This document shows positions 1 through 47,454 of a DNA stretch of 64,000 nucleotides, piece by piece (position 1 is the stretch's first letter; each line of letters starts with the position of its first letter). A program made the translations under genes and the position numbers. The DNA lies in contig NC_091156.1 of the NCBI RefSeq assembly GCF_040958095.1, positions 20,834,175 through 20,898,174 on the forward strand, in the 5' to 3' direction. The DNA comes from Procambarus clarkii (taxonomy: Eukaryota; Arthropoda; Malacostraca; Decapoda; Cambaridae). Under the pieces are notes generated by a model. It made no database searches, was not told the DNA's origin, and saw only the letters and a program-made list of their open reading frames with translations.

Positions 1-2080
1 AGCTGAAGCGGCTCCGCCTGCGCCGCACGAAAAGAGGCGACAGTATGTGGCAAGACGACTGCCCCCAACCCCCACTAGAAAACCAAGCCGAGAGTAAACC
101 AAGCTAACAAGAGGAACCACCTAAGAAGGGACAGGAAAAGGAAGGACCGCCAAAATACCCCATACTGCCGCCAAGAGAAGCACGCAGGTGGGACACCTAC
201 CACGAAGCCACCCGACCACCAACCGGAGGCAAGACCACGAGGTAGAACATAAGCAGCCCCGACAAGTCCCTCCCGAGCCCAGGAAAAAGGCGGAGCCGCG
301 AGAAGATCTCGGGCGCGACCACCGAGACCCAGGCGGCACAAGGAGATGGAACGTCTGCCGAACAGAAAAACTCCCCGAAGCATGCAAGCCCGCCAGGAGT
401 TTAGAAACGACGGGTCCGACGCGAGACATCGCAAGAACCCCCCCCAAAAAAAAAAAAACAACAACAACCGGCAGGGCAAGCTAGGAAAACCAAAGAAGGC
501 GGAAGGGTCGCCGCCAGAACAGGACCCGAACCAAGGGGCACGAACAACTGCAACAGACCGAGACAAGCACATCACAGGACACAGGCTGACCAACGCCTAA
601 GAACACACGCAGAACATCCCTGCTGCAGAGGAGGCAGGAAGAAAGAGCAGAAGCACAAAAAAAAAAAAAAAACAGGAGAACAACCAAGGGTGGACAATCA
701 GGCAGGGACAAAAACCCCACGCAATCTCCAGGCACAAAACGGCAGCAAAGTGCCACTCCACAACCGGACACAGGAACAAGGACACGCCACCGTGAAACAC
801 GGTACCAATGCACACGTGCAGCAGCAGCAACAGGCACCACTGCAACATGCAACATGTAAATAGCAACTCCCCTCTGCAAAGGCAGAGAACGGAGCAGGCA
901 GACCCCAGACAGGGCCAACGGAGACACGACAAAACCCTGCAGGTCCAGAAACCTGCACCAGGCGACCGACGGCGGAGAAACCCCGCTCGATACCTGCTGG
1001 ATGAGGTACTGGGAGCTCTTTTACACCTCAAGCCCGGCCCAAGGTCAGGCCAGACCGGCCAGAGGATGGCCCACCAGGCAGCTGCTAGGAGCAGGCCACC
1101 GGCCCACATACCCCCACAACCAGGACGGGCCGGAACTGCCATACGAAAACAGGCCAGTGCGCCCTGGAAGCCCACGGACGAACCAGCAAGAAGGCTTATG
1201 CTCGCAAGTAGGTTGTGTAACAAGCACAGACCACTGATGGTAATACAGTGTTCCCCAAAAGTGCCAATAGCACCACTGCACTCCACTGGTACTATCCCGC
1301 AAGTTCTACCAGATAGGCGAGACCCAAGAGCCAGAGCTCAAATCCTGCAAGCACAGCCAGGAGCCTCACCAGGTGAGTACAGAACCAACCCTACAACCCC
1401 CACACCTCACAACATTAAAAAAGGAGGGTCCCCTGAATGACTCCAGCATGGGTTGGACATGCACATGAGGGGGACAGGGAGGGTTGAAAAAGGGACAGTC
1501 ACTGGTGTGCGAACGGTCTCAGTCGTACAAAAATATACCTAAATAAAGACAGGTATATAAACACCGCCGCATCCAGCGCCCGGCCAAAAGACGCCAGACC
1601 GCAGAAACTCACCTGGCGAATGGTGGCTCGAACTTGACACAACTCAACCGTGCCCAGAAGAACTTGGGAGCACCGCCAGGTGAAGACGCCAGAGCTGGAC
1701 CCTGCCGGACCCGCAGGAGAATAGGGAGAGGCGAAGGAGGCGGTCCACACCCATGACACAGGGAAAACCGCGGTGTCCTCCCCACAACTGGGAACCAGGA
1801 TACCCCCGGCGCGAAGGGGCACATACCGCAGCCAGGGAGAAGAACGAGAGGCGAAGCACTGTAGCAAAAAGGGCGCAAAACCCCAGCACTGAAACACCGC
1901 CCAGACCAAAACAAACTCCACGGCGCACGCGCATAACACGCTGGCCGAACCGCACACCCTCCCTGCGGGAAGGCGCCAGCCAGGACTATTGCACGAGAAA
2001 AGGAGCCAAAAGAGGAAGCAGGAACAATAAAACCGGCCAAAGAAGCAAAGAGCCCAAAAAAAAAAAAAAAAAGGAACCCA

Positions 2081-2454
2081 ACCGGGCGACAAGTAGCCCA
2101 ACCGGGCGACAAGTAGCCCAACCGGGCGGCAAGTAGCCCAACCGGGCGACAAGTAGCCCAACCGGGCGACAAGTAGCCCAACCGGGCGACAAGTAGCCCA
2201 ACCGGGCGACAAGTAGCCCAACAGGGCGACAAGTAGCCCAACAGGGCGACAAGTAGCCCAACAGGGCGACAAGTAGCCCAACAGGGCGACAAGTAGCCCA
2301 ACAGGGCGACAAGTAGCCCAACAGGGCGACAAGTAGCCCAACAGGGCGACAAGTAGCCCAACAGGGCGACAAGTAGCCCAACAGGGCGACAAGTAGCCCA
2401 ACAGGGCGACAAGTAGCCCAACAGGGCGACAAGTAGCCCAACAGGGCGACAAGT
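2081..2454. repeat. 20-bp minisatellite, about 19 units
   Basis: Head-to-tail 20-bp unit (accgggcgacaagtagccca) inside DIRS element A, directly after a 17-nt A run. The first seven units carry ACCGGG (the third has GGCGGC instead of GGCGAC); the twelve units from 2221 onward all carry ACAGGG. The last unit is truncated. Because 20 is not a multiple of 3, all three minus-strand frames stay open through it, which creates spurious ORFs of 150-319 residues. There are no unique spacers. Confidence 0.97.
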
Positions 2455-4124
2455 ACTAGGAGCCGACAGACGTTCCAATAATGCGGGAAGTAGCGAAAAA
2501 CCTTCCCGTACCCTCAAGAACACAGAAGCCAACACTAGTCCCGAAGGCACACGAAGGCGCAGGCGCACCCGAGATCAGAAGTCACGCAGAACCCCATCGA
2601 ACGGGGAAACATGACAAAAACACCGTCCCAAAAAGCGGGGGAGGAAACATCCACCCCCAGGACGGAACCAACCGACTCAAAGGCCAAGGAACCGAGCCCG
2701 GGGAGGGGCCGACGTCCAACAGCACGTACGGCGAGTGGGGAGGAAAGACCCCACTCCGCGTAACCACAAGCCCCGCCTAGAGGGGGATAAAAACCCCCAC
2801 GGGGTCTAACGGGGCCAAGGCCCCCCCAAGTCAGCCCCTCCCCAGCCCCGGGAACCTACACGACAGGCCCCGGGGCCGAGCCGTTCCCCCAAAGCCCCGG
2901 CCGTACCAGAAAACCGGGGCAGCCGTGAAAACACTAAGGAAGGAAGCCCACTGGCAGACTCATACAACACGGCTGGAGGAACAGGCCCAAATGCCCCCGT
3001 CACCACCCCGGAAGGGGAATTCCCCGAGACTGCCCGAGTCTCAACACCACCAAACACCCCGCCCTGAACCTACAGACGGTAAGGAACCGGATGCAGGCAG
3101 GAAGGGTGAACCAGGGGAAAGACAAGGGGGCGTGGATGGAACCGAAGCAACCAACACCCCCAAGTCCCAAAACGAACTACAACGGGGCAGCCCCGGGGCT
3201 CCCGGGGAGGAAACCACGAGAACGTTGCCACCACCAAGGCTCAAGTGCAACGCCCCTGCTGCCCGCACCTGCTTTGTTAGCACAACTGGGTAACCGAGCC
3301 ACAACGAGCAACCAAACTCGCAGGACACCGGGTCGAAGGGGTCACTGACCCCACAGGCAGCAGATGGAGGCAAAACAGAGAGTCACCCAGAGACAAAAGG
3401 TGAGAGCAACCCTCAAACTCGCTGGAAGCGAGGGGGGGGGCTCTGGGGTCACATCCATCGGACCCGCGCGCCCCCAGGGGTTTCCCAGGGTCCCGAGCGT
3501 TTACTTTAAGAGGACTCGCGCTCAGGTAATCCCAGGCAGGGTACTGCTAACCGGCACCCAAGCTACCAAACAACTTTCTAAGAGCTGAACCCCCGGGACG
3601 TGTACACTCACGGGGACCTAGCAGGGGGTACCACCAGAAATACTCAGAACACAAGGGACACCAGGGGCAAGAACGAAGGCAGACCCCCCCCCACCAGGTA
3701 TATAAACAAAAGAAAAAGAAAACCCCGCAAGAGGACAGCGTACCCAAGCGGAACAGAGCCGGCCGCTATGATTGGTAAAGACAAGCTGCACAGTACCCCG
3801 CGCCCCACCAGTGCAAACACTGCCCCTTACTCTAAGGTGAACAAGGGAGACAGAACACCCGAGCACACAAAGAGCGGCCGAAAACCAAGCAGTAAACGGC
3901 CAAGCAGGGGCAGGACTCAAGGAACTTGTGGAAGGTGGCCCCAAGCCCCAAGGGCAGTACTTACAGGGCACCTAGGGAAGGGAACCCTAGGCGCATGCAG
4001 CCCGAGTACTGAAGAATCACTCCCGGCTCACGCACCACCTAGAAAACAGACACCACACTCTAGGTACAGTGCTGAAACAACCACTGGAGCCGGAGCACAT
4101 AACCATTGCCTATAGCATCAGCCG

Positions 4125-4547
4125 AAGAACTGATGGGTGGATAGCCGGCGTGGGAGGTCTGGGGCTCCCCCTTCCCCCTCCCGGGGAGGGGGGAGCTGCG
4201 CAGACAGCGGCGCGGTGACGTATGACGTCATACTAGTTTCCTTGTTTTCTGTTGAAGAGTTCTATTCACTAGTTCGGCTTAGGTAGCAATTTTCACCAGA
4301 ATAGGGGTTTGTTTTGGAATGCTTACCTTTCTGGATGCTTGACCCGGTCGATGGCAGACATAGAATGCTTCCAACCACACGGGGGTTTCTATAGGCCATT
4401 GCTCCCCTTGCCTCTCTGAGGGGGCCAGGTTCTGGCTCGTGGTCCCCGGTAGGCCCTAGAACTCCATACACATGACTGATGCCAAAGTCTGACATTAGCA
4501 TATCAGCCGGTAAAGCTCCGGGGAGCCGACGGGGCTCCCCCCAGAAA
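4125..4547. repeat. ITR of DIRS element A (plus-strand right end)
   Basis: Matches the right ITR of element B and the reverse complement of the left ITRs throughout: shared blocks include the GGTCGATGGCAGA stretch, a CCAGGTTCTGG stretch and the closing AGCTCC...GGGGCTCC...CAGAAA terminus. It is diverged from B but close in layout to the right end of C. Confidence 0.8.
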
Positions 4548-4552
4548 GAGGC

Positions 4553-4860
4553 GATATAATCACTACGTACAAAATAGTAACAGGAATTGATAAAATCGAT
4601 AGGGAAGATTTCCCGAGACCTGGAACTTCAAGAACAAGAGGTCATAGATTTAAACTATCTAAACACAGATGCTGAAGAAATAAGAAAATTCACTTTCGCA
4701 AACAGAGTGGTAGACGGTTGCAACAGGTTAGGTGAGAAGATGGTGGAGGCCAAGACTGTCAGTAGTTTCAAAGCGTTATATGACAAAGAGTGCTGGGAAG
4801 ACGGGACACCACAAGCGTAGCTCTCATTCTGTAACTACACTTAGGTAATTACACACAAAG
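4553..4860 (+). mobile_element. CR1-like LINE 3' fragment between DIRS A and B
   Basis: The frame from 4587 to 4820 encodes the C-terminal tail typical of CR1-like LINE ORF2: an FANRVVDGCNRLG segment (compare FSVRVVNGWNALG in the intact LINE at 48721) and a SSFKALYDKE ending (compare SFKCRYDRAQ). It then runs into a short 3' UTR ending in a CACTTAGGTAATTACAC tail. A second copy of this 3' end is at 7745-7835. Severely 5'-truncated; its family differs from the LINE at 48.6 kb. Confidence 0.75.
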
Positions 4861-5013
4861 TGGCCAGAAAGAATGAAGCATTAGGAGAAATGGTTAAAGA
4901 AGCATTAATCAGACAAGTAGACATCAGACAAGAAATTAGAAAGGAACCGACATCCATATCTGAACTGGTACAAAACACAGTTGATAGAAGCTCCTGATAA
5001 TTTTGCTTGCAAA
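4861..5013. other. AT-richer spacer between DIRS A and B
   Basis: Lower-GC sequence that looks like the pre-insertion target of element B. If B is removed at the AGAAAA shared by its two flanks, one frame stays open from about 4960 across to about 11325. No family recognised. Confidence 0.5.
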
Positions 5014-5470
5014 GAAAACCAGCGTTGAATGTAATGAAACGCCATTTTCTGGGTGAGCCCCGGAGGCTCCCTGGAGCTTATCGGGCTAATGTGTGTTATG
5101 TTAGACCGGGACATTAGCTAAGGAGTTCAGACCTACCAGGGACCAGCGCCAGAACCTGGCCCCTTCAGAGAGGTTTCAGGGAGCAATGGCCCTGGAAAAC
5201 CCCATATGGTTGGGGGTTTTCCTTATCTGCCATCGACCGGGGTTAGGCACCCAGAAAGGTAGGCGTAACAAAACAAACCCCACATGGTAAGACACTACAA
5301 CAAAAACCGAACAGAGAGGTAGAAAACTCCCTACAATCCCAAGGAAACAAGCAAACAAGCAAACATCACACTTTATTGCCGCGCCGATCGTCCGCGCAGC
5401 CCTCCCCACCCCGGGAGGGGGAGGGGGGAGCCCCGGACCTACCGCGCCGGCTGCCAAGCTCCAGTTCGGA
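5014..5470. repeat. Left ITR of DIRS B
   Basis: Reverse complement of 10797-11216 with only a few differences: a length change in a C/G run near 5410 and a rare substitution. The outermost ~60 bases differ from the other ITR's tip and are instead copied, inverted, in the ICR at 5523-5580. An apparent 91-93-residue ORF in both ITR copies is not kept in elements A or C and is not treated as a gene. Confidence 0.9.
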
Positions 5471-5522
5471 AGCTAAGCCTCAACCAACGCGAAAAAACCG
5501 CCGACCGGTGGGAGGGAGGGTT

Positions 5523-5614
5523 TCCAGGGAGCCTCCGGGGCTCACCCAGAAAATGGCGTTTCATTACATTCAACGCTGGTTTTCTGTGGGGAGCCCCTAC
5601 GGCTCCCTGGAGCT
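5523..5614. repeat. Internal complementary region (ICR) of DIRS B
   Basis: The first part is the exact reverse complement of the left terminus 5014-5076. It continues without a gap into the exact reverse complement of the right terminus (5579-5614 against about 11183-11218). The junction reads as the two element ends fused over AGAAAA, that is, a circle junction. This is the hallmark ICR of DIRS1-type elements, which is thought to template completion of the circular intermediate. Confidence 0.9.
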
Positions 5615-5639
5615 TCATACCCAAAGAGAAGGAAAAGAA

Positions 5640-6230
5640 AGGGCTAACCCGGGAGGCGGCCGCCACAAACTCTGCAACGCAAAGCCAAGACAACCGGTCG
5701 CAAACCTGCGACCCAAGGCAACAAGAACGCCCAAGAACAGACATACACATGGATGGGCGGCCAAAAACCTGTGCGACCCACAATTCCCTGCACCCGAAAT
5801 GAGCCCGAGACGTCACCAACACAGCAGCAATTGCTGTAAACGTCTGAACAGCACGGGCGCAAAGACAGACCGCAGTAAGAAGGAAAACACTGCGGACGAC
5901 CCGGGAGACCCGAGCCCTGAAAACAGGGAACGAAGGAACCGGATCAACCCCAGCGCATCCCCAGGCACGGTACGCCGGCAACAGCAAAAAGCACAACTGG
6001 ACAACACAGGACGCACCCCCCGGCCAAACCAAACAAGTACCAATACCCCAAGAACCCCTCCGGAAAGCAGCCGTCTCGACCGTCGCCAGGACAGAGAAAG
6101 GCTGCACACCAATAAAGCTACCACCAGTACCAAAGAGGAGGAAACTGAAACCGAAGGGGCTACCACAAACTGAGGGGAAGAGAAGAAGGCACCCTGAACA
6201 AGGACCAGGATGGCTCAGGCGACTCATGAG
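5640..6230 (-). pseudogene. Decayed tyrosine recombinase region of DIRS B
   Basis: The position next to the ICR and the nucleotide similarity to 11985-12430 (where recombinase motifs can be read) identify this as the tyrosine recombinase that would integrate the circular DNA. In B the reading frame is broken: the HxxR and terminal Tyr boxes cannot be followed in one frame, and the longest minus frame (5439-6227) crosses into ICR and ITR sequence. Considered non-functional. Confidence 0.55.
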
Positions 6231-7590
6231 CAGGCCGGAGGGGAAACAAAACGCGAGAAGACGTAATAAACGTCATACAGTCTCCAAGACGAAGCTCGCA
6301 GGTGGGACACCGGCAACAAAGCCACCTGAACACCATAGAGATGGCGATACCTGCGTCAAAATACCAGACGCGAAGAGCCAAAGAGAAGGCCGAACCAGTC
6401 ACGGACAGGACCGATTCGGCCTGCCGAAAGAGGCGAAGCCTCAGGAAAAACGCCCCGGGTACGGACACCTATCAAGCAGCGTCTGAAAAGAAGGCCGGGC
6501 CGGCCACAGTGGAACCATAAGGACTGTTCTCGTGGGAATGGGCTGCAACTGAGCCAGAACCCGAAGCAACAGCTGGACCGGGAGAAGAGGTACAGGTACC
6601 CCCCACCTCGACCAGGCCTGCCGAAAGCCTCCACCGTGAAGTCCTCGCAGGTGGGAAGGGCGCCACAAAACGGGCGACGCCTAGACCACGCCGACCCGAA
6701 GACGTCCATGGCCAGGAGTCCAGAAGCCCAACAGAGCCAACAAAACGAATCGGCGACGACTGGCCAACCCACGAAGAGGAATGAACCGAGACAGCTGTCC
6801 ACCAGGACGCAGGACACACCCCGGACACGAGCCACACGGTTAACCAAACCCCCTGTGGTTCCGGCAAGAACCACCAGAGAACAGTCGAAACAGAGCTGAA
6901 CGGTAGAGTACCTAGTGACCCAAACCCTCCGAAGCGCAAACCAGACAGCCATGAACACCTGAACCGGGCTGTGAGCCCGACGGACAGACAGACTCCATCA
7001 ACCTCGGCCGACCTGGTGAGCACAGGTCACAAAGCCCCAGCCGAGAGACGACCCGTCCGTGAACACATCGAGCGAAGGCTCGGGGAGCCGCCAAGGCACG
7101 GAACCCCGAAAACCCCAAAGAGGAAGCTGGTGACGCAGCACCAACACCAGATCCCCAGAGGAACCCAAGGAATGCAAGAGGCGGAAGTGGAGTCTCCGTA
7201 GGAACCAACCGACGCCGGAGCCAAACCCGACTCCGCGGGTAGACAAGCACGCCGAAGTGCAAACTCCCGCACAACCGCCCAAGCAACCGCTGAGCAACCC
7301 GGGACCCCCTCCTGAACAGCCAAAGGCGGGACCACAGCCACAGTAACACTTCTGGAGGGAAGATAATGAGGGGCCCAAGAGCCTGAAACAAGGCCCAGGT
7401 CCGAACCCGGGACGGAACAGAAGGTAAAACCTCCAGATCACCAGGAAACCAAACCCAGCGATCTGGAAAGAACCATCCCCTGGCGAGCAGACAAGCGGAC
7501 TGACTGGGAGCCCACTCCAGCCAGTCGTCGAGGTAGGCCAGACACCGAATCTCAGACGCAGACAGGGCACTAAGATCCGGTAAAGATGCA
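6230..7590 (-). pseudogene. RNase H and C-terminal RT half of DIRS B
   Basis: On the minus strand 7524-7535 encodes YLDD followed by WLEWAPSQSA, the RT catalytic motif C of DIRS elements with both aspartates present. 7031-7077 encodes SLDVFTDGSSLGWGF, the first RNase H motif with its Asp. Further downstream about 6700-6960 carries degraded DCSLVV and SRRR-like blocks that align with the cleaner copy in element C. Several frame changes separate these motifs, so no single product can be made. In a live element this enzyme would copy element RNA into circular DNA. Confidence 0.7.
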
Positions 7591-7838
7591 AAGAGTATAC
7601 AAAGTGCCCTTCACAAAATAGGGAATGCAATAAAAACAGCAAACCTGAAGCCCCACCACCAAAGCATTGTATGACAATCATATGAAGACATATTATGACA
7701 TATGACAATCATTATACGACAATATGACAATTATAATCAAAGCATGATATGACAGTGCTGGGAAGACGGGACACCACGAGAGTAGCTCTCATCCTGTAAC
7801 TACACTTAGGTAAGTACACATAGGTAATTACCAACCGT
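7590..7838 (+). mobile_element. LINE 3' end inserted in the RT of DIRS B
   Basis: 7745-7835 repeats the 3' end seen at 4790-4855 (a GGGAAGACGGGACACCAC block, then a CACTTAGGTAA tail). Upstream, 7640-7745 is AT-rich with a repeated ATGACAAT-type motif. The insertion separates RT motif A (7845-7905) from motif C (7524-7535), so it postdates element B. Confidence 0.65.
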
Positions 7839-7839
7839 G

Positions 7840-8280
7840 CTAGCCCCAGAAAAACTGGAGAGGAATGTGCCAAGAAGTGACCTGGAGGTCCAGGTCCACC
7901 ATCCATGCACCCGGCCCTAACAGAATCCGAACAGGAGACAACAGTCCTCCGAGCAGGGCAGAGGATCCAGGGCGCAGACGGAAGTAGTCCAGAAGAACTG
8001 CAGACTGGAAAAGCTCATGACTGCAAAGAGCAGACGGGAAGCCCAGAAGGATGGGGCGGAACGACCACGCCCCACGCACCCACGAAGAGGAAATGAAGCG
8101 CAGGGAAGAAGCCCACCCCGCCAGCTCTGAACCCCCCCCAAGGGGGAGAAGCCGTCCTCCGACGCCAGCAGAGGCCGGAAGACAACCCAAAGCGCCCACC
8201 AACAGCGGGACCAAGCGAGAGGCAACAGAGCAAGCTGCTCCCCCAGCGCCCAGTCAACAGAGAAGGGAACAGAACCCCTT
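7840..8280 (-). pseudogene. N-terminal RT half of DIRS B
   Basis: The minus frame 7840-8214 ends in a WMVDLDLQVTSWHIPL segment, recognisable as RT motif A (the DIRS form is close to SLDLKDAYWHVPI, as read in the plus copy near 19770). The leading part is GC-rich and not recognisable by eye. It is cut off from motif C by the LINE at 7590-7838. Confidence 0.6.
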
Positions 8281-8289
8281 CAGAAAGAA

Positions 8290-8497
8290 AAAGTACACAA
8301 CCGAAGTCATGAGGAGAGACTACGGGAATGAAACCACACTTCGCTGGAAGAGGAAGTGAGGGGAGACCTGATCACCACATACAAGATACCCAAGGGAATT
8401 GACAGGGTTGAGAAGGACAGGATATGTAACACAAGGGGCACACGCACTAGGGGACACAGGTGGAAACTGAGTACCCAAAAGAGCCACAGATAGAATT

Positions 8498-8544
<47 letters not shown>

Positions 8545-8750
8545 AGTGTCAGAATGGGAACGGGAAAGCACCAAGAAGTAATGTGGCGACTCCTCACACA
8601 AGTAACGAGGCTGACCCCCATACAATGTCACATGTAGACATGACAGAGCCCAACAGGCACAGGAACCGATACACCTGTTGACGGACGGTTGAGAGGCAGG
8701 ACCAAGGAGCCAGAGCTCAACCCCCACAAGCACAACTAGGTGAGGACATA
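8290..8750 (+). mobile_element. CR1-like LINE 3' fragment with a 44-T tract, inside DIRS B
   Basis: Matches the 3' part of the LINE at 48.6-51.5 kb: TGGAAACTGAGTACCC, the MSHVDMT-like region and the GAGGC...CAACCCCC...CACAACTAGGTGAG tail can all be followed. Where sister copies read a short T run before AGTGTCAGA (compare 56393-56410), this copy has 44 consecutive T (8500-8543). Strongly 5'-truncated. Confidence 0.85.
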
Positions 8751-8774
8751 TATTGTAAAAGCACAAGCCGCCGA

Positions 8775-10790
8775 CTAGTGGCAAAGAGCACTACGCCGGC
8801 CAGGCAAAGAAGGCACAAAACTGCATCAAAAGGCCCACCTCGACAGCAAAACCACAAAGTCCCAGCACAACCACAACATGTGCCAAGACCCAAAAAGCTC
8901 AGCCTGCAAGCCAGGAAGACCCCGGAACCCCAAAAGGCCGAACCGGGTCACACGAGGAAACAAAGTCCCCTGAACCCACAAAAGGGGGCCCAAGAGGAAG
9001 AAACCTCCAGAACGAAACCAAGGAACCCAAAGGAACCCAGAATCGAACCAGGGGGAGCCCAAACCACCACATATGCCGGCGGAAAACACCACTAAAAGGC
9101 AAAGCACAGACCCCAGCAGAACGCCCTGGGAAAACGGTCCCAACAGACCGAAAACCGAGGGGCAAGGTGTGGGAGCAAGCATACCAGCCAGGGGCACTGA
9201 GCCTAAACCCAGAGGCTCAGACCCCAAATCAACACCCAAACGTTCCCAGAGGAACAGGCAACGGCAAGAAAACACCAGAAAAACAAAGAAACGACAACAG
9301 GAGAACAAAAACCCTGCAAATTTTTTGAAAACTCACCAGAGACGCTCGCTCGCACACCCAGACGCATGTAAACAAACCGCAACGCCGCCCTGGTGGCCAC
9401 GCCGGGAAACCGGCAGACGAAAATGGCCGCCAGCAGGGGCTGTGACTGACGCTTAATACACAAAAACACGCCAGCAAATGTGGGAAGCTAGCAGACTGGA
9501 AGGGCGAAAAACGACGCCCAACAGCAGAAAAACCCCTGAAGGGGCAAAACCGCCCCAGAACTGCTAGTAGGCAACCCCCACAGCCCCGGGAACCAACAAC
9601 AGAGGCCCCGGGGCAGAGCCGTCCTCCAAGCCCTCCGCCCTGAAAGAAAAGCAAGAGCCCACGGGAAAGGCAACAAGAAAGGGCCGCTGGTAAGACCCAG
9701 AAGCCTTGGCAGGAGGCACAGGCTCAAACCTCCGTCCCCAACCCGAACGGGGCATCCCCCGAAAACCGCCCGAGTCTCTGCCGCAACTGAACCCCGCCCC
9801 GACCCAGAAACACGCAGACGGTCCGGAGCCGGGAACATGGAGAGAAAGGGGCGAGCAGCACCTAACCAAACGGGGCGGCCACGGGGCATTCGAGTGGGAA
9901 ACCAACCTAGCATGTTGCAGCAACCTAACCTAGCTTGCAACACGGATGCCGCCTGTACTCTGAACAGTAATAACATCAGGAGAGTACTGGAGAACAAGCA
10001 GAGAATCACTCGCAAGACTCCGGGTCAAGGTGTCAGTGACCCAACAGGCAGCATGACGGAGGTAAAAATGACGACTGTCACCCGGAGACAAGGGAACAGC
10101 AACCAACGATCCCGTACAAGACGGGTTGGAACCCGGAAGACACATGCAATGGTCCCCCGAGCCCAGACAGGGGTTTCCAGGGCCCGTAGGGTAACAACTA
10201 CGGGAAGCCCGGGCAAGGTGTTGCTAACCGGTTAAGAAACCCAAACATAACAAGAGGGTAGATTATAGCACTGAAAACCCCCGAGACGTGTACAAGCACG
10301 GGGGCCTAGCAGAGGGCCGCCAAACACTACCAGTGGAACTATAACCACCTTAGGCAGACCCCCACCAGGCAAGAAAAAGAAAAACAAAAGAAAAACCCCG
10401 CAAAAGTACACCGTCTCCAGAGGCAACAGAAACCGGCCGCCGCTGAGGTGGCAGGCTGCGCAACACCTTGACGCCCTAACCAGCACAATACCAATCCCTA
10501 CCCAGGGCCAAACAAGGGCCCCAAGCCCCAGCTGGCCCCAAGGGCGAGGCAAATGCCGAGCAGCAAGAACCTCTACGGGAATGGTTCCCGAACGCCCCAG
10601 GGAAGATAACCCTGTAACGCAAGGGCAGTACTCACAGGGCGCTTAGGGAAGTCAGCCACTAAGCACATGCAGCCCCGGCACTGATGAAGTACTCCTGGCC
10701 ACCGCACACCACAACACACGGCAGTGAACGCCACACAAGGCAAACACCGCCTAGGAAACTGAGGCCAGAGAAGCGTCAATCCCGGTTGAC
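8775..10790 (-). pseudogene. Gag-like 5' region of DIRS B (decayed)
   Basis: This GC-rich tract resembles 2460-4120 of element A block by block (for example the CCCCGGGAACC...GGCCCCGGGGC block at ~9590 and ~2850, and the ACGTGTACA...CGGGG...CCTAGCAG block at ~10285 and ~3598). In DIRS order it is the 5' third, where Gag is encoded. Minus-strand frames reach only 100-175 residues, and no zinc knuckle or other motif was recognised, so the Gag label is positional. Confidence 0.45.
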
Positions 10791-10796
10791 ATTAGC

Positions 10797-11216
10797 GAAC
10801 GAACTGGAGCTTGGCAGCCGGCGCGGTAGGTCCGGGGCTCCCCCCTCCCGGGGTGGGGAGGGCTGCGCGGACGATCGGCGCGGCAGTAAAGTGTGATGTT
10901 TGCTTGTTTGCTTGTTTCCTTGGGATTGTAGGGAGTTTTCTACCTCTCTGTTCGGTTTTTGTTGTAGTGTCTTACCATGTGGGGTTTGTTTTGTTACGCC
11001 TACCTTTCTGGGTGCCTAACCCCGGTCGATGGCAGATAAGGAAAACCCCCAACCATATGGGGTTTTCCAGGGCCATTGCTCCCTGAAACCTCTCTGAAGG
11101 GGCCAGGTTCTGGCGCTGGTCCCTGGTAGGTCTGAACTCCTTAGCTAATGTCCCGGTCTAACATAACACACATTAGCCCGATAAGCTCCAGGGAGCCGTA
11201 GGGGCTCCCCACAGAA
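10797..11216. repeat. Right ITR of DIRS B
   Basis: Inverted partner of 5014-5470 and almost identical to it. Its tip (from about 11183) is specific to this end and reappears inverted in the ICR at 5579-5614. Confidence 0.9.
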
Positions 11217-11330
11217 AAGGAAATAACAGCAGAAGTAAACATTATAGATACAATTGTTGGGTTAGTAAAAGGCCTTATAGCAAAAGACAATGACTGTGAT
11301 TACAGAAGAATTGGAAGGTACAAATATTTT
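11217..11330. other. Spacer between DIRS B and C
   Basis: About 115 AT-rich bases, the right-hand flank of B and left-hand flank of C. Its first codons continue the open frame from 4960-5013 if B is excised. Family unknown. Confidence 0.45.
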
Positions 11331-11780
11331 AAAAACCAGCATCGAATGTAATGAAACGCCATCAAACGCCCCGGAACTATCCAGGCCGATATTGCTAATA
11401 TTAGACCTTAGACCTTGGCCTCAGTCAGTGTGAATGGAGTTCTTAGGCCTACCAGGGATCACGAGCCAGAACCTGGCCCCCTCAGAGAGGCATGGGGAGC
11501 AATGGCCTATAGAAGCCCCCATGTGGTTGGAAACATTCTATGTCTACCATCGACCGGGTTAGGCACCCAGAAAGACAAGCATCCCAAAACAAACCACTAT
11601 TCTGGTTAAGAAATTGCTACCGAGAGCCAAAGTAGTGGACAAAACTTCCCAAACAAAAGCGAGCAAACAAGCCTGATGTCACCACATCGCAGTCTGCACA
11701 ATTTCCCCCAACCCGGGAGGGGGTAGGGGGAGCCTCAGACCCCTCGTGCCGGCTACCCAAGACCCTAGTTCTGAGGCTGG
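11331..11780. repeat. Left ITR of DIRS C
   Basis: Homologous to 5014-5470 and, inverted, to 15448-15895. It lacks a few dozen bases near the tip: the GCCATTTTCTGGGTGAG stretch of B is replaced by a shorter GCCATCAAACG stretch. Confidence 0.75.
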
Positions 11781-11836
11781 ATATCAAAAACACACGAAAA
11801 ACTGCTGACCGGAGGGAGGAAGGGTTGTCGTGGAGC

Positions 11837-11930
11837 CTCCGGGTCTCACCCAGAAAATGGCGTTTCATTACATTCAACACTGGTTTTCTGGGGGAAGCCC
11901 CTTCAGCTTCCCGGAGCTATTGCCAAAAGA
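11837..11930. repeat. ICR of DIRS C
   Basis: Same fused-ends arrangement as in B: an inverted left-terminus part (...AATGGCGTTTCATTACATT...) joined through CTGGTTTTCTGG to an inverted right-terminus part. It keeps left-tip bases that are missing from C's own left ITR, so the ICR preserves the older terminus. Confidence 0.75.
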
Positions 11931-11984
11931 CGAAAACAAGAGGGACTTACCCGGGAGGAAGTCATTGCTCGCTCCTCAACGTGA

Positions 11985-12430
11985 AGCCAAGACAACTACC
12001 TGCAACTGCCAATCCAAATCGACACAGGTCCGACGAGGCCCCAGGAACATTAACTAAGTAACATGCAGCCAGGACCCTGCCCAACCGCCAAAAACCCCAC
12101 ATCTGAATGTCAGCCCAAGACATGTTGCCGAAGACGGCAGTAAGAGCCGCCAACTTACAAACGTAGTGGGCATGGGGATAGACCACAGGCTGGCTGGACC
12201 GAATAACCGTGAGGACGACCTGAGAGATCTGCACTCTGGAACAGGGACGAAGGAAAACCGAATCAATCCAAAGCGCGTCTCCGGACATGGAAGTCATGGG
12301 GTGTAAATAATGGCAGAGAACCGCAACCGGACAACATGTGATGCACCCCTGGCCTGACCACGCATGAATCAAAAACCCAAGGACCCCTCCGGAAAGCAGT
12401 CGTCTCATTCTTCACGAGAAAAAGAGGAGA
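11985..12430 (-). pseudogene. Tyrosine recombinase C-terminal domain, DIRS C
   Basis: The minus frame 11962-12408 reads as the DIRS-type recombinase: an HAHYVCKLAALTAVFGN block matching the HxxR box (the expected Arg is Cys here), then MSWADI, then GFWR, then LAACYLVNVPG with the candidate nucleophile Tyr encoded at 12058-12060. In the family this enzyme cuts and rejoins the circular intermediate into a short target. The Arg-to-Cys change in the box and the lack of an N-terminal half in frame argue that it is inactive. It is still the best preserved recombinase in the window. Confidence 0.7.
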
Positions 12431-14170
12431 CGGCTGCAAGCGAATAAACCTATCACGAGGACCAAGAGAGCAGAAACCCCTGCGCCGGAAGCGAGCATGA
12501 AGCTCCCCCGACCTGACCCCGAGAAGCCAATGCCAAGAAGAAAAGAGCCTTGGAAAAGCAGTCCTGAACCAAAGGGGCTACAACAAACCGAGGAGAAGAG
12601 AGAAAAGAAAGCACCCAATCCAAGGACAGAAACAGCTCAAGCGGAGCATGAGCAGGCCGTTGGTGAAACAATGCACGAAATAGCTTGCGAAATGGTACAG
12701 AAGTAACATCAGTACTGAAAGCAAGAAGTAGCGGCTCTGCCAACACCGCACAATACGAGGTGACAGTATTTGGCATAAGATGATGGTCCTGAAACAACCA
12801 CGAGAGAAAGGACAAGACAACCTTAACTGAGAGCAAAGAACACCTACGAAGAGAAAGAAACGAAAGGACCACCAGGAAACTTCATATTGCCGCCGAGACG
12901 AAGCCCGCAGGTAGGACACCATCAAGGACGCCACCTGAGCACCATACAGATGGTGCTAGACTCGAGTCAAAAAGACCAAACACGAAGGCTCGAGAAGAAG
13001 ATCGAACCAGCCACGTGACAAATTGGACCGATCTGCTGAAAGAGGCGGAGCTACGGGAAAACCTCCGGGTTCGGAAACTGACCAAGCAGCACCTGAAACC
13101 AAGGCTGGGCCGGCCACCATGGGACCAAGAAGACTACTCTTCCCTGGTAAGTCTCCAAGCGAGCCAGGACCAACAGCTGAACTGGGGGGAAGAAGTACAG
13201 GAACCCTAACCTCAATCAGTCTTGCCGAAAAACATCGACCCCGACGGCGTCACTGTCGAGGAAGGGCGCCACATACGCCCTTCCCATACATTACATAGGT
13301 GACGCCTCGACCCTGCTGACATGAAGAAGTCCACATCCAGGCGTCCGAAAGTCTGGCAGAGCCAACTGAAGGAGTCAGCGTCGACCAACCATTCCATGGA
13401 CATGGGAATGAACCGAGACAGGCCATTCGCCAGAACGTTGGACACCCAACACATGTGAACCGCCAGGAGAGCCAAACCATGAGAACTCAGCAGACAAATC
13501 ACCCGAAGCAACCAGCCCCAAAGAGCCAAGGACCGCAGAGAACCCCCACGGTTCAGACAATAAACCACCAGGGAGCAGTCTGAATGGAACCAGATTGTCG
13601 ATCCGCGGGGAACCCGAATCCTCCAAAGAGAATACCACACCACCGCAAACTTCTGAACTGTGCTACGGGCTCGACAGAAGGACGGACCCCACTGCTCCTG
13701 GCCGACCTGTTGAGCACTGGTCACAAAGCCCCAGCCCAGAGACAACGTATCTGTGAACACATCGAGTGAGGGCTCGGATAGGCCCCAAGGTATTGAACCC
13801 TGAAAAACCTGAAGAGGAAGCCGGTGATGCAGCAACCGACGCAAGGCCCCCGGCGGCTGAACCAAGCAATCGCGAGAGAGGCAAAAGGGACGTCCCCAAA
13901 GAAACCAGAACAGCCGACGAAGCCAAACCCGACCTGGCAGGTAGACCATCACGGCAAAGTTCAGGCTCCCATACAAAACCTTGAGCAACCGCCGAGTGAC
14001 CCGGGAGCCCCCAGAAACTGGCAAAGGCAGGACCGCAGCCGAAGGAAAAACTCTGGAGGGAGAGACAAGGAAGCGGTCCAAGATTCCCAAATAAGACCCA
14101 GCCAAATCCGAACCTGGGAGGGGACCAAATGGGACTTCCTCCAGTTCACCAAGAACTCGAACCCGGCGAA
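12430..14170 (-). pseudogene. RNase H and RT remnant, DIRS C
   Basis: The minus frame that ends at 13212 keeps a nearly full RNase H: LDVFTDTLSLGWGF (~13730-13775), FHSDCSLVVYCLNRGG, AVHMCWVSNVLANGLSR and VDFFMSAGSRR, in that order. This SDCS...NRGGS...LADGLSR pattern is typical of DIRS RNase H. Upstream, an AE/FLVNWRKS block (about 14150) is the sequence that follows the YLDD motif in RT, where element C stops. The long ORF 13212-14408 is a chimera whose first ~75 residues are LINE sequence. 12430-13210 is broken. Confidence 0.7.
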
Positions 14171-14174
14171 CTTG

Positions 14175-14945
14175 GAAAGAACCAAGAACTCCCTCTATTT
14201 CTGCAATCTCTCCTGCTCTGAAGGGGAAAGTGAGTACTGAGCAGTACTCAAGACGGGACAGCACCAGTGATTTGAAGAGTACAACCATTGTGATAGGATC
14301 CCTGGATTTGGAAGTTCTTGTAATCCATCCTATCACTTTTCCGGCTGTCGCAATATTTTCTTGGTTACGCTCCCTAAATGTTAGGTCGTCAGACATCATT
14401 ATTCCCAAAATCCTTTACACGTTGCTTTCCTACTATGGGAAAATTTGATTGCGTTTTGTACCCTGCATTATGTTTAAGGTTCTCATTTTTACTGTATCCG
14501 AGTACCTGGAATTTATCACTGTTAAACATAATGTTATTTTCTGCTGCCCAGTCAAAAACTTGATTAATATTTGTTTGTAGTTTTTCAATGTCTTCAGCAG
14601 AGGTAATTTTCATGCTGATTTTTGTGTCATCTGTAAAGGATGATTCAAAGCTGTGCCTTGTATTTGAGTCTATATCTGATATGAGAATAAGGAAAAGCAA
14701 TGGTGCAAGGACTGTACCCCGAGGTACAGAGCTTTTAACTGTGCTTGGACTATTTCATATGGCTGACTGTTACTCTTTGTGTTCTGTTCGACTAAAAACT
14801 GTGTATCCAACATACTACTTTACCAGTTTTTCCCATTGTCCTCATTTTGTGTGCTATCGCTCCATGGTCACATTCATCAAATGCCTTTGCGAAATCTGTG
14901 TATACCACATCTGCGTTCTACTTTCCTTCTAATGCCTCAGTACCA
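14175..14945 (-). mobile_element. CR1-like LINE RT fragment inserted in DIRS C
   Basis: AT-rich insert in GC-rich surroundings. The minus strand encodes YTDFAKAFDECDHGA (RT motif A, ~14860-14905), FLILISDID (motif B tail), SFTDDTKIS (motif C, FADD degraded to FTDD), NNIMFNSDKFQVL, and finally LFKSLVLSRLEYCSVL and GEIAEIEGV. Frames break several times. 5' and 3' ends are missing. A different LINE lineage from the one at 48.7 kb. Confidence 0.8.
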
Positions 14946-15447
14946 CCAGGACAGAGAATTGTATGCTATTTACACCAGGGGGGGGGCAAAAACCAAAGGC
15001 AGAATCCCCCTACCAGGCAGGAAAACAAAAAGAAAAAGAAAAAGAAAACCCCGCAAGAGGACAGCGTACCCAGGTGGATCAGAGCTGGCTGCTATGATAG
15101 GTGATAACTAGCTGCGCAGTAATTGCGCAAAGTACTGTTGCTAACTGCCTCTTACTCTAAGGTGAACAAAGATGCCAGAACACTGCAGCACACAAAGGGC
15201 GGCCGAAAGCCGAGCAGCAAACAACCAAGCAGAGGCAGAAACCAAGAACTTGTGGAAGGAGGCCCCAAGCCCCAAGAGCAGTACTTACTGGGCACCTAGG
15301 GAAGGTAACCCTAGACGCATGCAGCCCAAGTACTGAAGAATTACTCTGGCTCATGCATCCCTAAGAAGACAGCCACCACACCACACAGACACAGAGCTGA
15401 GAACCAATTCATGAGCCAGAGCACACGACTTTTGCCTAGTGCATCAG

Positions 15448-15895
15448 CCTCAGAACTGGGGGTTTTGGGTAGCCGGCGCGAGTTCTTGGGCTCCCCCTTC
15501 CTTTTCCTGGCTAGGGGGAAGCTGCGCAGATGGCGGTGCGGCGACGTGGTGACATGCTCATTTGCTCGTATTTGTTTGTGGAGTTCTGTCCACTAGTTTG
15601 ACTCTCGGTAGCAATTTCTTAACCTGAATAGGGGTTTGTTTTGGGATCCTTACCTTTCTGGGTGTCTGACCCAGTTGATGGCAGACAGAGTGCTTCCAAT
15701 CACACGGGGGTTTCTATAGTCCATTGCTTCTCGTGCCTCTCTGCGGGGGCCAGGTTCTGGCTCGTGGTCCCCGGTAGGCCTAAGCCATTCACACTGACTA
15801 ATGCCAAAGTCTAATATTAGCAATATCAGCCTAGATAGCTCCAGGGAGCCCAAGGGGCTCCCCTGGAGCTGGAGCTGGGGGGAGCCCAGAAAAAA
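15448..15895. repeat. Right ITR of DIRS C
   Basis: Closest to the right ITR of element A (AATAGGGGTTTGTTTTGG, CACACGGGGGTTTCTATAG). The tip contains extra CTGGAGCTGGAGCTGG-like bases and ends in CAGAAAAAAA. Confidence 0.75.
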
Positions 15896-15899
15896 ACTG

Positions 15900-17720
15900 C
15901 TGAATATACTGTTTTGAAGTGCCCCTTTCTGGTAAGGCTTCAGTGGCTCCCTGAAACTAGCTTACAGACAATGTTCTTCTGAAATGAGTCACATCAACCC
16001 TAGAAGTCCTGTATAGCTTGCTGGGGACCAGAGCCAGAACCTGGCCAACTTACAAAGTCACAGTAAGCAGGGAACTGTAACCAAGAAAACATCCAGAAAA
16101 TAAGTGAAGCAATACAGACAACTGCAAGGTTCACAGAAAAGAAATCACAAACAGCCAAACATTTCTGCAAAGGATTCACTCCAAAACTAGGTCAAACTCG
16201 TTTTAGTTATGGCTGGCCACCAACATTATTATTATTAACATCTTTATTGACAAAATTAATTACAATTTTGCCTAATCTGAGAATTTAAATTAAGTCTTAT
16301 TAAAGTGAGGATAATGCTGGTATTCACTGTCACAGAGGACCGAGGGTCATACACAAGACAATAAGTCTAAACTGTAGGCCGAAGCACAGTATATATCATG
16401 GGATACAATCAATATTTTAATGTATGAATATGTGAAAACAACTTTCTATTGTGCACTGCCACACAAGGGCAGGGACAGGTTCATAAGCTTAGAAGTAATA
16501 TACATAAAAATTGTTCTTCATTCTTTAAAATGGACAAGCAAATTTTGGATAAATTGTTAGGATGTCGTCCAGAACACCTGAATCAATGAAATAGTTACAC
16601 AGTTAGTGGTACAAGAGGCCAGGAGGTCTAAAGCCTTTTACGGTTTCACATTCAACAATATAGTGTTCCAGTGAATGCATTAAAGATTATATGGAATGTA
16701 ATTTTTGCCAATGATGATAATAACTATTGTATAAAATTTGTGTGGATCCCATCCCATGTTAGAGTTGGAAAACATGACTTTGTAGATCGATTGGCCAATG
16801 AGGCTTGCAGGAAAGAAAACATTGATTATGACTTTGGACTATCTAATGCAATTATTAGAAACATACAAATTAAAGAAATTAATTCAGATTTAGAAGAACT
16901 AAGAAATGTCCAGAGACCTGAAAGCTGCAGTATTAAAAGCTATAACAACTTTTGTAATATCAGGTATTTGTATGGTCAGCACAGTAACCAGATCAGGCAA
17001 TGTGATACAGTCATTGGCCACCAACAGGTGGCAGCAGCACCACTTGGAGCTCCTGACTTCCACCTCATCATATTCTCTGTCTGGAGCTCAAAGACCATGA
17101 ATTAATGCCCATGTTAAGGGAGAGGGGAGAAAACATGGAGCCACCAAGGCCCTATCAGAAAGAAAGGTTTCATTACATTCAACCCTGGTTTTCTGATGGA
17201 GTTGAACAGTGGCTCCTTGCATCTAACAGAGGAAAAAACGGAACATATCAAGAAGGAGGATAGCAAAAACAACACTTAGGAAGATAAAATGTTAGGACAG
17301 GAATCTTGACCCAGGGCAGCACAAGCCTGATGAGGACCAAGAACATCGACCAGGTATCATGTTGCTACAACCCTTTTAGACCTCCAAAATCCCTGAGCCT
17401 GAATAGCAGCCCATGACATTGGCTGCCATTTGGACAAAGCTGCATACAGTATTTGTGAACATCGCAGACCTGAAAGTAGACTGCAGGCTGGCTAAACTAA
17501 ATGACACTGCAGACAACCAGGGATCAATGAACCTTGGAACAGAGAACCAAAAAAATTGGGTCAACAAACAGTGCATTCACTGAAGCAGAATGGGAGATGC
17601 ACAAATAGCGACAAACCATCGCAACCTGACAACAAACGATACACCCCTGGCCAGATAAACCTTCCATCAACGATCAAGAGATACCTCTGGAAGCAAACCC
17701 TATCATTCTTCATAAGACTA
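15900..17720 (-). mobile_element. DIRS1-like remnant D (left end, ICR and recombinase traces)
   Basis: 15915-16130 resembles the ITR (CTGGGGACCAGAGCCAGAACCTGG, then GGGAACTGT). 17160-17215 resembles the ICR (AGGTTTCATTACATTCAACCCTGGTTTTCTGA). 17290-17720 aligns with the recombinase region of C at 12050-12400. The ITR and ICR are pushed apart by a LINE piece at about 16218-17120. No open frame. Confidence 0.65.
16218..17120 (+). mobile_element. LINE fragment with RNase H tail, inside DIRS D
   Basis: The plus frame 16671-17105 encodes KFVWIPSHVRVGKHDFVDRLA, the C-terminal RNase H motif of I-like LINEs (W-I-P-SH-VG...DRLA), then a coiled acidic stretch. The first 450 bases are AT-rich with a TTATTATTATTAACATCTTTATTG start that looks like an inverted LINE 3' end, so two pieces may be abutted. 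Coding potential ends within about 145 codons. Confidence 0.65.
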
Positions 17721-17919
17721 CAAAACCCTTAAAAGTTTCAGTACCAGAAGCAAGGCATGGGAAGGGTGAATAAGACATCCGTACAATGAAAGCAGACAGA
17801 CAATATGAGCAGCAGCAAAAAGCGCACCAGCAGAAACACCAGCTGCTCTAATTCCCATAACCACAATAATGAGATGGGCCAACTTAGTGACAACCACACT
17901 AACACCAAACCTTAACACA

Positions 17920-18760
17920 AAAAACCAACGTTAAGTGTAGTGAAATGCCAATTTCTGGGTGAGCCCTAGTAGCTCTTTGAGGATTTGATAGTGTGTCATA
18001 CTACTAGGTCCCCTTAGTCATGGAGTTCTATTAGCCTACTAGGGACCAGAGCCAGAACCTGGGCCCCCTTACAGAGGCACAGAGAATGGTGGCATTTATG
18101 CATCCACAGGGAAAGGCACCCAGAAAGTCAGCAAGACAAAAACCACTGTTGGCATGAAACATGACTACAGCCTCAAGAATCACCTAAAGAACTCCCCAAA
18201 CTATGAAAGCAATAACAAATTAATTAAACTAGCACCAACTTGTTCACCCCTCTTCCCCCATTCGTTTGGGGAGACAAGAGAGGCAATCTAAGGTCAGCTG
18301 GCTATTCCACCCTCAGTTCTATGATGATGCAAACCTCCCAATGACCAGGAGTATATTGCTGCTTCCTGAAACCAACTACCCACAGAGAAGGCACAAAAGG
18401 GCACTTACCAGGGAGGAGGAAGCACCACAGGTGTCAAGACTAAGTGAAGACTCTTGGCCGCAATACACAACCCAAAGCCACATGAGGGCACTGGGGTCCA
18501 AGAGACTGACAAGATTTTGGGCCGCCAGAACCCTGTTTAACCACCAAAACCCTCACCCCTTAATATCAGCCCAGGAAATATTCATGAAGACAATCAAAAG
18601 AGCAGCATATTTCCAAACAACATGGGCACAAGGATAGATGGCATGCTAACTAGACTTAATGACACTGTGAACAACCGAAGGCAAGCCTTAGAACAGGGAA
18701 CCAAGGCAACAGGATCAACCCACAAAGAATCCACCGAGGAAGCAACCTGTCCTCTTAAAA
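17920..18760 (-). mobile_element. DIRS1-like remnant E (left ITR plus recombinase trace)
   Basis: Starts AAAAAACCAACGTTAAGTG, the left-tip sequence of B with substitutions, followed by the ITR blocks (GGGTGAGCCC, CCAGAGCCAGAACCTGGG, GGCACCCAGAAAG). From about 18420 it resembles the recombinase region of C and D. Highly decayed and truncated at both the RT side and the far ITR. Confidence 0.6.
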
Positions 18761-24721: not shown

Positions 24722-27700
24722 TATACATATATATACATATATATACATATATATACATATATATACATATATATACATATATATACATATATACATATAT
24801 ATACATACATATATACATACATATACATACATATACATATATACATACATATACATACATATACATACATATACATACATATACATATATATACATATAT
24901 ATACATATATGCACTCTTGCAAAATGCCGTAGTTTCTAAATGTCACTTTAAAATTGCTAATAATTTTCTAAATCTCTTTAATAATTCAAATTATATTATT
25001 CATAAATGTTAACTTCTCATTAAGTTTTAAGTATTACCCCATTAAACTTGTAAATATTTCTCCTAATTATGTATGTTATGCCTGAAACAGTGTGTATTAG
25101 TGGCTTTATGTAACCATTTCTTGCCTCTGAATTCTCTACTATATCGTGTATCAAATGTATGTACTTGATATAAAATAAAATATTATTATAGACTGATCAT
25201 GTATCCCCCTTGACTCCTGTCTCGAGAGAATTTAAGTTTAGTTATACTGTAATTTGTTTCCTGGGGGACAGGCAGCCTGTGTATGTTTATACGTTAGGCT
25301 AGGGTATCGAGGTATCCTCCCGCTTCTCCAGGTCGAACTACTTGCCTTCCTCGAGATGCAACTTCACAATAGTTGACTAATTCCCAAGTACCCAATTTCT
25401 GCTAGGTGAAAGGAAACATGCCTAACCATTTCTGACCTGCTCAGGATTTGAGCCCGGGATTCTTAATTGTAAGTTTAAAACCAAACCAAGTGTACTAGCG
25501 AGACTTTGTAGTTCACCTACCCTGTCTTAACTTATCATACATTGAATGCTTTTGAGAGGATTTGTCCATTCTCTAATATAGTGACCAAAATTTAACAGCT
25601 GAGTGAGGCTTTACCAGAGCAAAATTTTATTGAAGGATAATGTTTGTTTCTATTGCCAATGCTTCTTTATATAATTCAGAAGTATCCTATTTGCTATATT
25701 TTGTCCATACATACTCAATTAGTTAGGTTTTAAATGATTCAGATGAATGTGGGTGGATGTATTATTATACAGTATCTAGGTTTTTATATTAAACATAATC
25801 AGTATGGCTTTGGTTCCCAAAATTACAGTACAGTATTAAATATTACCTCGACTGCAAATTTTTCAGGCGAAACCTGCACAGGAGCGCAGGTAGAAGCAGT
25901 GGGCTTTACTTCCCAGGATGCCACCATTGTAACAAAGATTGCATACATTGCTGATTTCACCCTCTCATGTTCTAATGGTGCAAAAGTGAGTTTCATCGTT
26001 GATGTCTTAGTGTGTGGGGAGGAGGGAAAGGAAGTTGTGATGTATTGGTTTCCCTAAAAATATAATTGATAGGTGCATTAAATTAATGGTAGATTGCATT
26101 TGTGTGGGTCAGATGCCAGTCTATTCGTACTCAAAATTACTACCTAGAGTAATCGCATATTTGTCATGTACGTATATATTATTGTCCAAGGAGTACAGTA
26201 CTTGTAAAGACAACAGACAAAAGCATACTTTTTCTTCAGAAATATAACAAAATTGCTGCATGCACAAATTTTGTGCATCTTTAATGTATTGGGGTACTGT
26301 AACTTTTTAGTCACTGATATTATATTTTAAGGCTAAAACCTTTGCCATTTTGACCCATGAAGTGTATGCTCATTTGAAAGCAATTCTTGGATAATATATT
26401 TTGTACCGGATTGTGCAATGGCAGTATGATACTGTGTAATGTGTGTTATTTAGCTGAAGATGGAACAATTTTTGATTTGTTTGCAGAACCTTAAGGAATG
26501 AAAACGCTTTCTTTAGTACCTTAGTATTTATACCATTGATAATTCCCTCCCTCAATTCACTAATCATCAATCATCCCGCCTCCCTCTTGCTTGCTTGTCC
26601 GGATTCCTTCTTAGTTCAGTTGTATTGTTCACAATTGATTTTATTTTTGGCAACGGGGGGGGGGGGTGAGGTGGTCATCCACCTCCTTACCAAATAGTAT
26701 GGTTCTAAAAGGAAGTTAATTGAAAGTAAATTATTTAATGTTTAAATTTGAGTTGCATTGGTGATATAATGAGTACATTTTGTCATCTGTAATGATTATT
26801 AAAAAAAATTATTCCATATTTAAATTTCTCGAGAGATAATTTAATTGTCTTTAATAAGCAAATTGTGTTCCTTTTTAGGATATTGCTATAATTAAAAAGT
26901 ATATTGTTAAACAAAGTACTGTACTGTATTTCAGTTTTAAGTAAGAATATTTGTCTTCCAGGACATTTCTCTGTATGCTGAAACTGTTGATGGCATCGTT
27001 GGAGTTGCTCGCTCAGTTGATGGTGTCAAGTACCAAGTAAGAAGTGCTGCTTTTACTGTACTAGTACAATTCACTAAAGCCATTTTTTCAATTTGCCATT
27101 TTAGACCTCATCGTCCTTTAGTGGGATTTTTACCAGAGAATTACTACTTGTATTTACAAACATTTTGCCTATTTTTGGCCATTTATCACAAAAGGATTGT
27201 GAGTTTACTTGATAAATTACAGAACATATCTTGATTTTGGAGGTTCCATTGTATATGCAGTACTGTATATATATATAAAATATTTTTAATATTTGTTTAA
27301 AAATATAAATTGTTCAATATTTAAACTTTTGACAATATGGATTATGCTAAATAGAAGTATGCATGTAGTCTCAGTTCAGTTAAACATGGGTGATAAGTCT
27401 GCCATTATTTTTGTTTATACAGTGGCACACAGGATTTTACCTCTGGTTTTTAAAAAGAAAAATCCGGATTCCATGGAAAACTTAATAAAATTAGGATCGT
27501 TGGTTCATCATGTAAAATAATTTTCATCAAATTGTATTTTTTTCTGTGAGGAGCCCCATCGGCTCCCTAAAGCTATCCAAACTGATATGTGCTATATTAG
27601 TTTGGGGTCATCAGTCACAAGTTATGTCTACCAGGAACCACGAACTAGAACTTGGTCCCCTCAGAGAGGCGCAGGGAGCAATAGCCTATGAGCACTTTAT

Positions 27701-47445: not shown

Positions 47446-47454
47446 TACAACTAG

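Follow-up and report, generated by a model that had tools for sequence, protein, structure and literature searches.

Organization of the DIRS1-like element B

The window analyzed here, a 64,000-nucleotide (nt) stretch of the Procambarus clarkii genome (contig NC_091156.1, positions 20,834,175 to 20,898,174), contains five successive DIRS copies, A to E, in the same orientation (window positions 1–18700). Element B, a DIRS1-like element with its sense strand on the minus strand, spans positions 5015–11217, with AAA at each end counted as the 3-bp junction core and the bounds taken from the table of copy junctions described below. Both junctions read AGAAAA on the plus strand. At the left junction (5013–5018), positions 5013–5014 are most likely derived from the target, 5015–5017 are the shared AAA, and 5018 belongs to the element; at the right junction (11213–11218), AG belongs to the element, AAA is shared, and 11218 is most likely target-derived, the bases assigned to the target lying outside the element on both sides. 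In the sense orientation, B starts with TTT, ends with TTT, and has AAA as its junction. A one-sided extension (5018–5044, plus strand; rE in the published nomenclature, sense orientation) is found at the left end and in the internal complementary region (ICR) only, and is followed by an inverted inner copy of the core, TTTTCT (5045–5050, plus strand), at the edge of the inverted repeat. The left terminal repeat (5045–5476, plus strand), divergent over approximately 5045–5064 and near-identical from 5065, is inverted relative to the right one (10792–11217, minus strand), with 99% identity over 370 nt or, with the tips included, 96.5% over 433 columns. Beyond the divergent stretch, the two repeats differ by 1 substitution and a 6-nt indel and are otherwise identical up to the inner edge. 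A PAT-like element was considered and rejected: split direct repeats were not encountered, and B has long terminal repeats in inverted orientation.

The ICR itself (5523–5615, minus strand) consists of the reverse complement of 5015–5075 (at 5523–5583) joined to the reverse complement of 11183–11217 (at 5581–5615), the two halves, 61 and 35 nt long, overlapping in AAA; the extension measures approximately 27–32 nt and the divergent part approximately 20 nt. The initial annotation of this DNA, which had placed the element at 5014–11216 and the ICR at 5523–5614, was right about the location of both, and the exact bounds are revised here. Its statement that the outermost bases differ between the two ends agrees with the presence of the extension at the left end alone, followed by the divergent stretch.

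The ICR corresponds to the fused ends of the element

The reverse complement of the ICR matches positions 5013–5075 exactly over 63 nt (ICR positions 5523–5585) and positions 11183–11218 exactly over 36 nt (5580–5615), the overlap at 5580–5585 reading AGAAAA when the flanking bases are included. By comparison, among 200 mononucleotide shuffles of the ICR, the longest exact match to the plus strand of the 64-kb window averaged 10.8 nt and never exceeded 13 nt. The claim that the ICR represents both tips fused without mismatch is therefore borne out for B.

The comparison suggested in the initial annotation, namely, collecting copies genome-wide and tabulating their terminal bases, was carried out by searching the 4.03-Gb assembly with the left end of B, which yielded 1298 candidates; the 40 best-scored, B included, were used, their identity to the query being printed as 100% after rounding. 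The right ends of the other 39 copies (designated by L numbers) were sought in 2.4-kb stretches, so that, together with B, right ends were located in 34 of the 40 copies; those of L011, L017, L019, L021, L024, and L039 are absent, altered, or beyond the stretch fetched. The independence of some copies is doubtful, since L014 resembles L035 in both flanks and L004 has the left flank of L036.

An ICR is present in all 40 copies. The left half of the ICR and the tip of the same copy agree in full over 58 nt in 28 copies and over 57 nt in 35, with 7 of the 12 mismatching copies differing at the final base alone; for the right half, full agreement over 30 nt is seen in 29/34 copies. ICRs unlike their own termini, which the initial annotation had named as evidence against its proposal, are found in L006 and in the older window copy C, with its truncated tip; most of the 40 copies match, and the outcome is mixed in this sense. 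The correspondence between the ICR and the copy's own ends thus holds in most young copies and is faded or cannot be shown in old ones. The tip and ICR of the old copy D, hand-aligned over a 25-nt piece, share 5 columns that differ from B and disagree with each other in 5 others, and in the DIRS neighbor of L005, tip and ICR share one of six variant columns.

Junction bases and unoccupied sites point to a crossover within AAA

The ICR core reads AGAAAA in 39/40 copies and ACAAAA in one. The left genomic core is AAAAAA in 36/40 copies, AGAAAA in two (B and L015), CAAAAA in one (L010), and ATAAAA in one (L025), and the right genomic core is AGAAAA in 30/34 copies, AGAAAT in two, and AGAAAC in two. 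The target is thus the most likely source of the two outer left bases and the final right base, with the crossover most likely falling within AAA, the 3-bp junction published for DIRS1-like elements. In the simplest reading of these sequences, a circle junction CACAG-AAA-ACCAG would recombine with a target NN-AAA-N. The perfect 6-nt overlap in B is partly a matter of luck because the target of B happened to supply AG. Hence, of the proposal that the shared A-rich core is the target of the recombinase, the A-rich recombination site survives the 40-copy comparison, with the core being AAA rather than AGAAAA.

The targets are A-tracts, with A at 39/40, 37/40, and 30/34 of the three target-derived positions. 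At the second of these positions, the circle carries G, unlike the A-tract targets, and selection of the copies does not favor A there because the search query began with G (window position 5014). We further joined the flanks of 33 copies by the target-derived rule, compared them with other sequences, and inspected nine matches that span the joint, chosen after setting aside most of those that hit DIRS ends or the locus of the copy itself. These unoccupied sites are paralogous relatives of the targets rather than alleles, and two of the nine are good and seven weaker or unclear. For L034 (84.8% identity) and L037 (82.4%), the two good cases, no gap is needed at the core when the joined flanks are aligned to a relative lacking the insertion, and this relative shares the unusual position-6 C of the right end. 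Joined flanks also remain open in frame: over 55 codons in L004, with the reading IYLDLKKAFDRVPH, which we take to resemble a non-long terminal repeat reverse transcriptase, and in B, where one frame runs through the joint for approximately 70 codons. Taken over 40 left ends, 34 right ends, and the paralogous sites, the 3-bp junction is shared with the target, with no longer target duplication.

Two other assignments of the outer bases were weighed. If the element's own left end were AAAAAA, the outer AA would not come from the target. The prevalence of AA at left positions 1–2 (36/40) fits this alternative, which is nevertheless improbable, given that the corresponding bases are AG in B and L015, CA in L010, and AT in L025, that the ICR has AG, and that flanks joined by the target-derived rule are gapless in L034 and L037 and, more weakly, in L029 and L038, with L008 and L033 requiring a 1-nt gap; the joined flanks of L004 and B, open at the one join length used, point the same way. 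Still less probable is an operative core comprising the whole AGAAAA hexamer, with the circle matched to the target: B and L015 do have AGAAAA at both ends, but the left ends are predominantly AAAAAA as opposed to the AGAAAA of the ICRs, and position 6 of the right end is T or C in 4/34 copies; AGAAAA was consequently rejected as the full recombination core. Flipping of the extension was also considered because the core is inverted on its two sides (5013–5018 and 5045–5050). The extension is present in 40/40 left ends and 0/34 located right ends, which is weak evidence against flipping, the copies having been picked by the left end and the right ends located with a query lacking the extension.

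Coding motifs and autonomy of the B family

On its minus strand, B carries a reverse transcriptase (RT) motif, YLDDW (7521–7535), an RNase H-like motif, TDGSSLGWG (7034–7060), in a frame other than that of YLDDW, and, after RNase H, the DLFAS-like motif MDVFGSA (6689–6709), so that the RT, RNase H, and DxFxS motifs lie in order. In 100 first-order Markov sequences, each motif occurred on average 0 to 0.02 times per 64 kb. Because Pfam gave no match in the DIRS pieces submitted, the RT and RNase H assignments in B are based on short patterns. For the recombinase, we take the pattern GFWR..YL, which does not stem from a database, to denote a putative tyrosine recombinase (YR-like). An exact-pattern scan and a search for relatives in viral contigs returned nothing for the DIRS element. 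The sense strand of the DIRS interiors contains 9–12% A and 33–34% T (window positions 1–4100, 5700–10780, and 12000–14184) compared with approximately 30% each in 20001–48000, with little difference between codon positions in five pieces. RNA hyperediting was rejected as the cause, as A/G and C/T mismatches between copies are similar in number.

Between the two terminal repeats of a copy, 7 substitutions were counted in a total of 11,518 nt (34 copies), over a 339-nt part in local alignments, in which differences at the edges can be hidden. The interiors of five of the 39 other copies are 97.6–99.1% identical to B over the aligned stretch, and among the eight longest open stretches listed for each fetched piece, none exceeds 278 codons. 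Like B, L080, L081, and L083 have YLDD and TDGSSLGWG in two frames that overlap, of 232 and 236 codons, whereas in L082 and L084, a 194-codon stretch contains YLDD and a separate 213-codon stretch contains DVFGS, the RNase H motif not being among the eight longest open stretches listed for these two copies. The pol motifs are therefore in separate open stretches in B and all five further interiors. Such damage in such young copies suggests that they were copied in the damaged state, with proteins supplied in trans, and the B family appears to be young, non-autonomous, and mobilized in this way, although frameshifting or splicing could make the frames usable.

Probable insertion of B-family copies into other DIRS copies

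In 6 of the 34 copies with a located right end, another DIRS copy forms the right flank, and the joint lies exactly at a core of that copy. Five of these joints (L002, L026, L028, L032, and L036) are at the outer core and head-to-tail, and in the sixth, L010, the target is the inner inverted core of another DIRS copy (of the type at 5045–5050 in B). The joined flanks of L033 and, more loosely, of L005 and L037 match DIRS interiors as well. The window contains 60 A6/T6 runs, corresponding to approximately 3.8 million genome-wide if extrapolated from this one window, and for 5 of 34 insertions to fall on outer cores by chance, more than half a million of these runs would have to be DIRS ends.

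These joints would look alike if the neighbors arose from dimer circles or unequal exchange instead of insertion at the end of an older copy. We consider this origin unlikely because the tips of the five outer-core neighbors carry variants that differ both from B and from one another, and the neighbors look like older, independent copies. Insertion at older ends is part of a broader proposal, for and against which we see the odds as about even: that the recombinase prefers the ends of older copies, the circle entering the AAA of a left junction to produce head-to-tail arrays that recreate the circle junction; that the A-tract ends left by insertions serve as new landing sites; and that the split-frame family would spread in this way via the proteins of another element.

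A model for B and its relatives

Collectively, the identity of the ICR with the ends, the junction bases, the unoccupied paralogous sites, and the near-zero divergence of the repeats, all directly observed, lead us to conclude with high confidence that B belongs to a DIRS1-like family and was inserted recently, its ICR representing a stored circle junction and the circle being exchanged at the AAA of an A-tract. We infer from sequence the RNA step, the circle, the recombinase, and the movement of B-type copies by the proteins of another element. Under the published model, the RNA would lack parts of the element ends, and the ICR would act as the template that restores them, after which the cDNA would close into a circle. 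A tyrosine recombinase would then exchange CACAG-AAA-ACCAG with the AAA inside a genomic A-tract, leaving no longer target duplication. The predicted junction of the extrachromosomal circle is CACAGAAAACCAG. The replication model for DIRS is itself described as not fully proven in the part of PMC5633606 consulted. Least credible among the alternatives is that a tandem junction left the ICR behind, as a remnant or a gene-conversion tract, and that the ICR has no template role in replication. The head-to-tail joints, which recreate much the same sequence in 5/34 copies, lend this idea some color, but an ICR is present in 40/40 copies and in the older C and D, and the table of PMC3266345, as far as consulted, reports the same layout.

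Several observations weigh against the conclusion that B is such a recent insertion with a stored circle junction. The 40 best-scored of the 1298 candidates lean toward young and B-like copies. The ICR of L006 differs from the copy's own right tip at 5 positions and is a real exception; this tip (for which a side entry names L006 and L045) combines left-end and right-end sequences in a hybrid and looks like the product of an exchange between the repeats. The ICR of C is nearer to the tip of B (56/58) than to its own (41/62), and so is that of D (47/62 versus 42/69, global alignment). Among the unoccupied sites, those of L029 and L038 need no gap at the core, yet are only 73–74% alike, that of L006 is gapless at the core and hardly alike on the right side, the 1-nt gap in L008 and L033 falls at the core, and the alignments of L005 and L009 contain too many gaps for a verdict. 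Finally, Pfam returned no family match for 24 DIRS pieces (10 + 9 + 5; not all open stretches), and the YR-like pattern, although present in C and, interrupted by a stop, also in D, was not encountered in B.

With a minimum of 40 near-identical copies in one genome, the junction chemistry can be read from sequence, including which bases belong to the element, the ICR, and the target, where the crossover falls, and how often ends are reused as targets, and the table of copies corrects an over-reading to which a single copy such as B naturally lends itself.

Comparison with known DIRS elements

According to the sections of PMC3266345 consulted, DIRS1-like elements have inverted repeats and two ICR halves that overlap on a 3-bp circular junction, with an extension usually at one end; 28 elements are tabulated. 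The ICR composed of fused ends is thus the rule for DIRS1-like elements and is neither new nor special to B. Accordingly, where the initial annotation saw in a single copy the structure predicted for DIRS1 circular replication, the DIRS1 anatomy stands, this anatomy is not peculiar to B, and the circle is deduced. B resembles these elements in its divergent and conserved repeat parts, one-sided extension, ICR beside one terminus, TTT/TTT/AAA ends and junction, YLDD motif, and lack of a long target duplication (PMC3266345, as consulted). In the same table, XtDIRS3 has the same start, end, and junction as B, and DpuDIRS3 is a crustacean entry. The near-identical repeat of B, at approximately 410 nt, exceeds the tabulated 31–304 nt, other ranges being fitted. 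Unlike in those elements, the pol motifs of B and the five interiors are in separate open stretches, and the A-tract preference of the B family beyond the 3-bp core is not discussed in the sections of PMC3266345 consulted.

The decapod families Alvi and Ymur belong to the same superfamily as B and have similar pol motifs (YLDD, LTTDAS/ASKSGWG, and DLFAS) but, in the parts of PMC2685390 consulted, are described from pol fragments obtained by polymerase chain reaction, so that the comparison with B is confined to pol. Dictyostelium DIRS-1 is reported in the consulted part of PMC5633606 to insert preferentially into its own copies, with no apparent sequence preference. It is like B in having an ICR complementary to both ends and, as B-type copies presumably do, a circular intermediate and a preference for self-insertion, whereas in the B family, unlike in DIRS-1 as described there, right ends fall exactly at the core of another copy (6/34). 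In the parts consulted of PMC3266345, PMC2685390, PMC5633606, PMC6387122, PMC8498967, and PMC8969392, we met no statement of a non-autonomous DIRS1-like family or of exact core-to-core self-insertion, a scope too small to claim that either is unpublished.

Other DIRS copies and features in the window

Earlier work on Dictyostelium DIRS-1, by Cappello in 1984 and 1985, is cited through the review PMC5633606.

The older relative C (11332–15893, minus strand) has an altered right tip ending near 15893 and a left tip cut to approximately 31 matching bases (11332–11362), with its ICR at 11827–11918. Its motifs, both pol-like and YR-like, are NWRKSHLVPSQ, TDTLSLGWG, NVLANGLSR, VDFFMSA, MSWADI, and GFWRLGRVLAACYL, and a piece of an unrelated retroelement inside it was recognized by eye. 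The old copy D (15888–17916, minus strand) has a degenerate left tip, an ICR at 17134–17224, and a YR-like GFWR..YL motif at 17351–17392, the site of the stop mentioned above; its far end was not found. The left tip of D abuts the right end of C on AGAAAA, and the two appear to be joined like head-to-tail copies, with both tips altered. Tips of an old-looking copy in the opposite orientation lie beside A-tracts within 27541–32317 (right tip at 27541, left at approximately 32313).

A repeat inside B (8305–8757), with a 44-bp T run, has relatives at 47446–47851, 48634–49029, and 56451–56595, two of which are near predicted tRNA-Thr genes; alignments of B-type copies suggest that this repeat predates their spread. 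Separate from the DIRS copies, an open frame on the minus strand at 22243–23727 matches Vps54_N (Pfam, E value 8.7e-86) and, weakly, a second family, no other Pfam match having been obtained, and a tandem array of a 34-bp unit, approximately 48 copies long, occupies 62388–64000, running to the end of the window.

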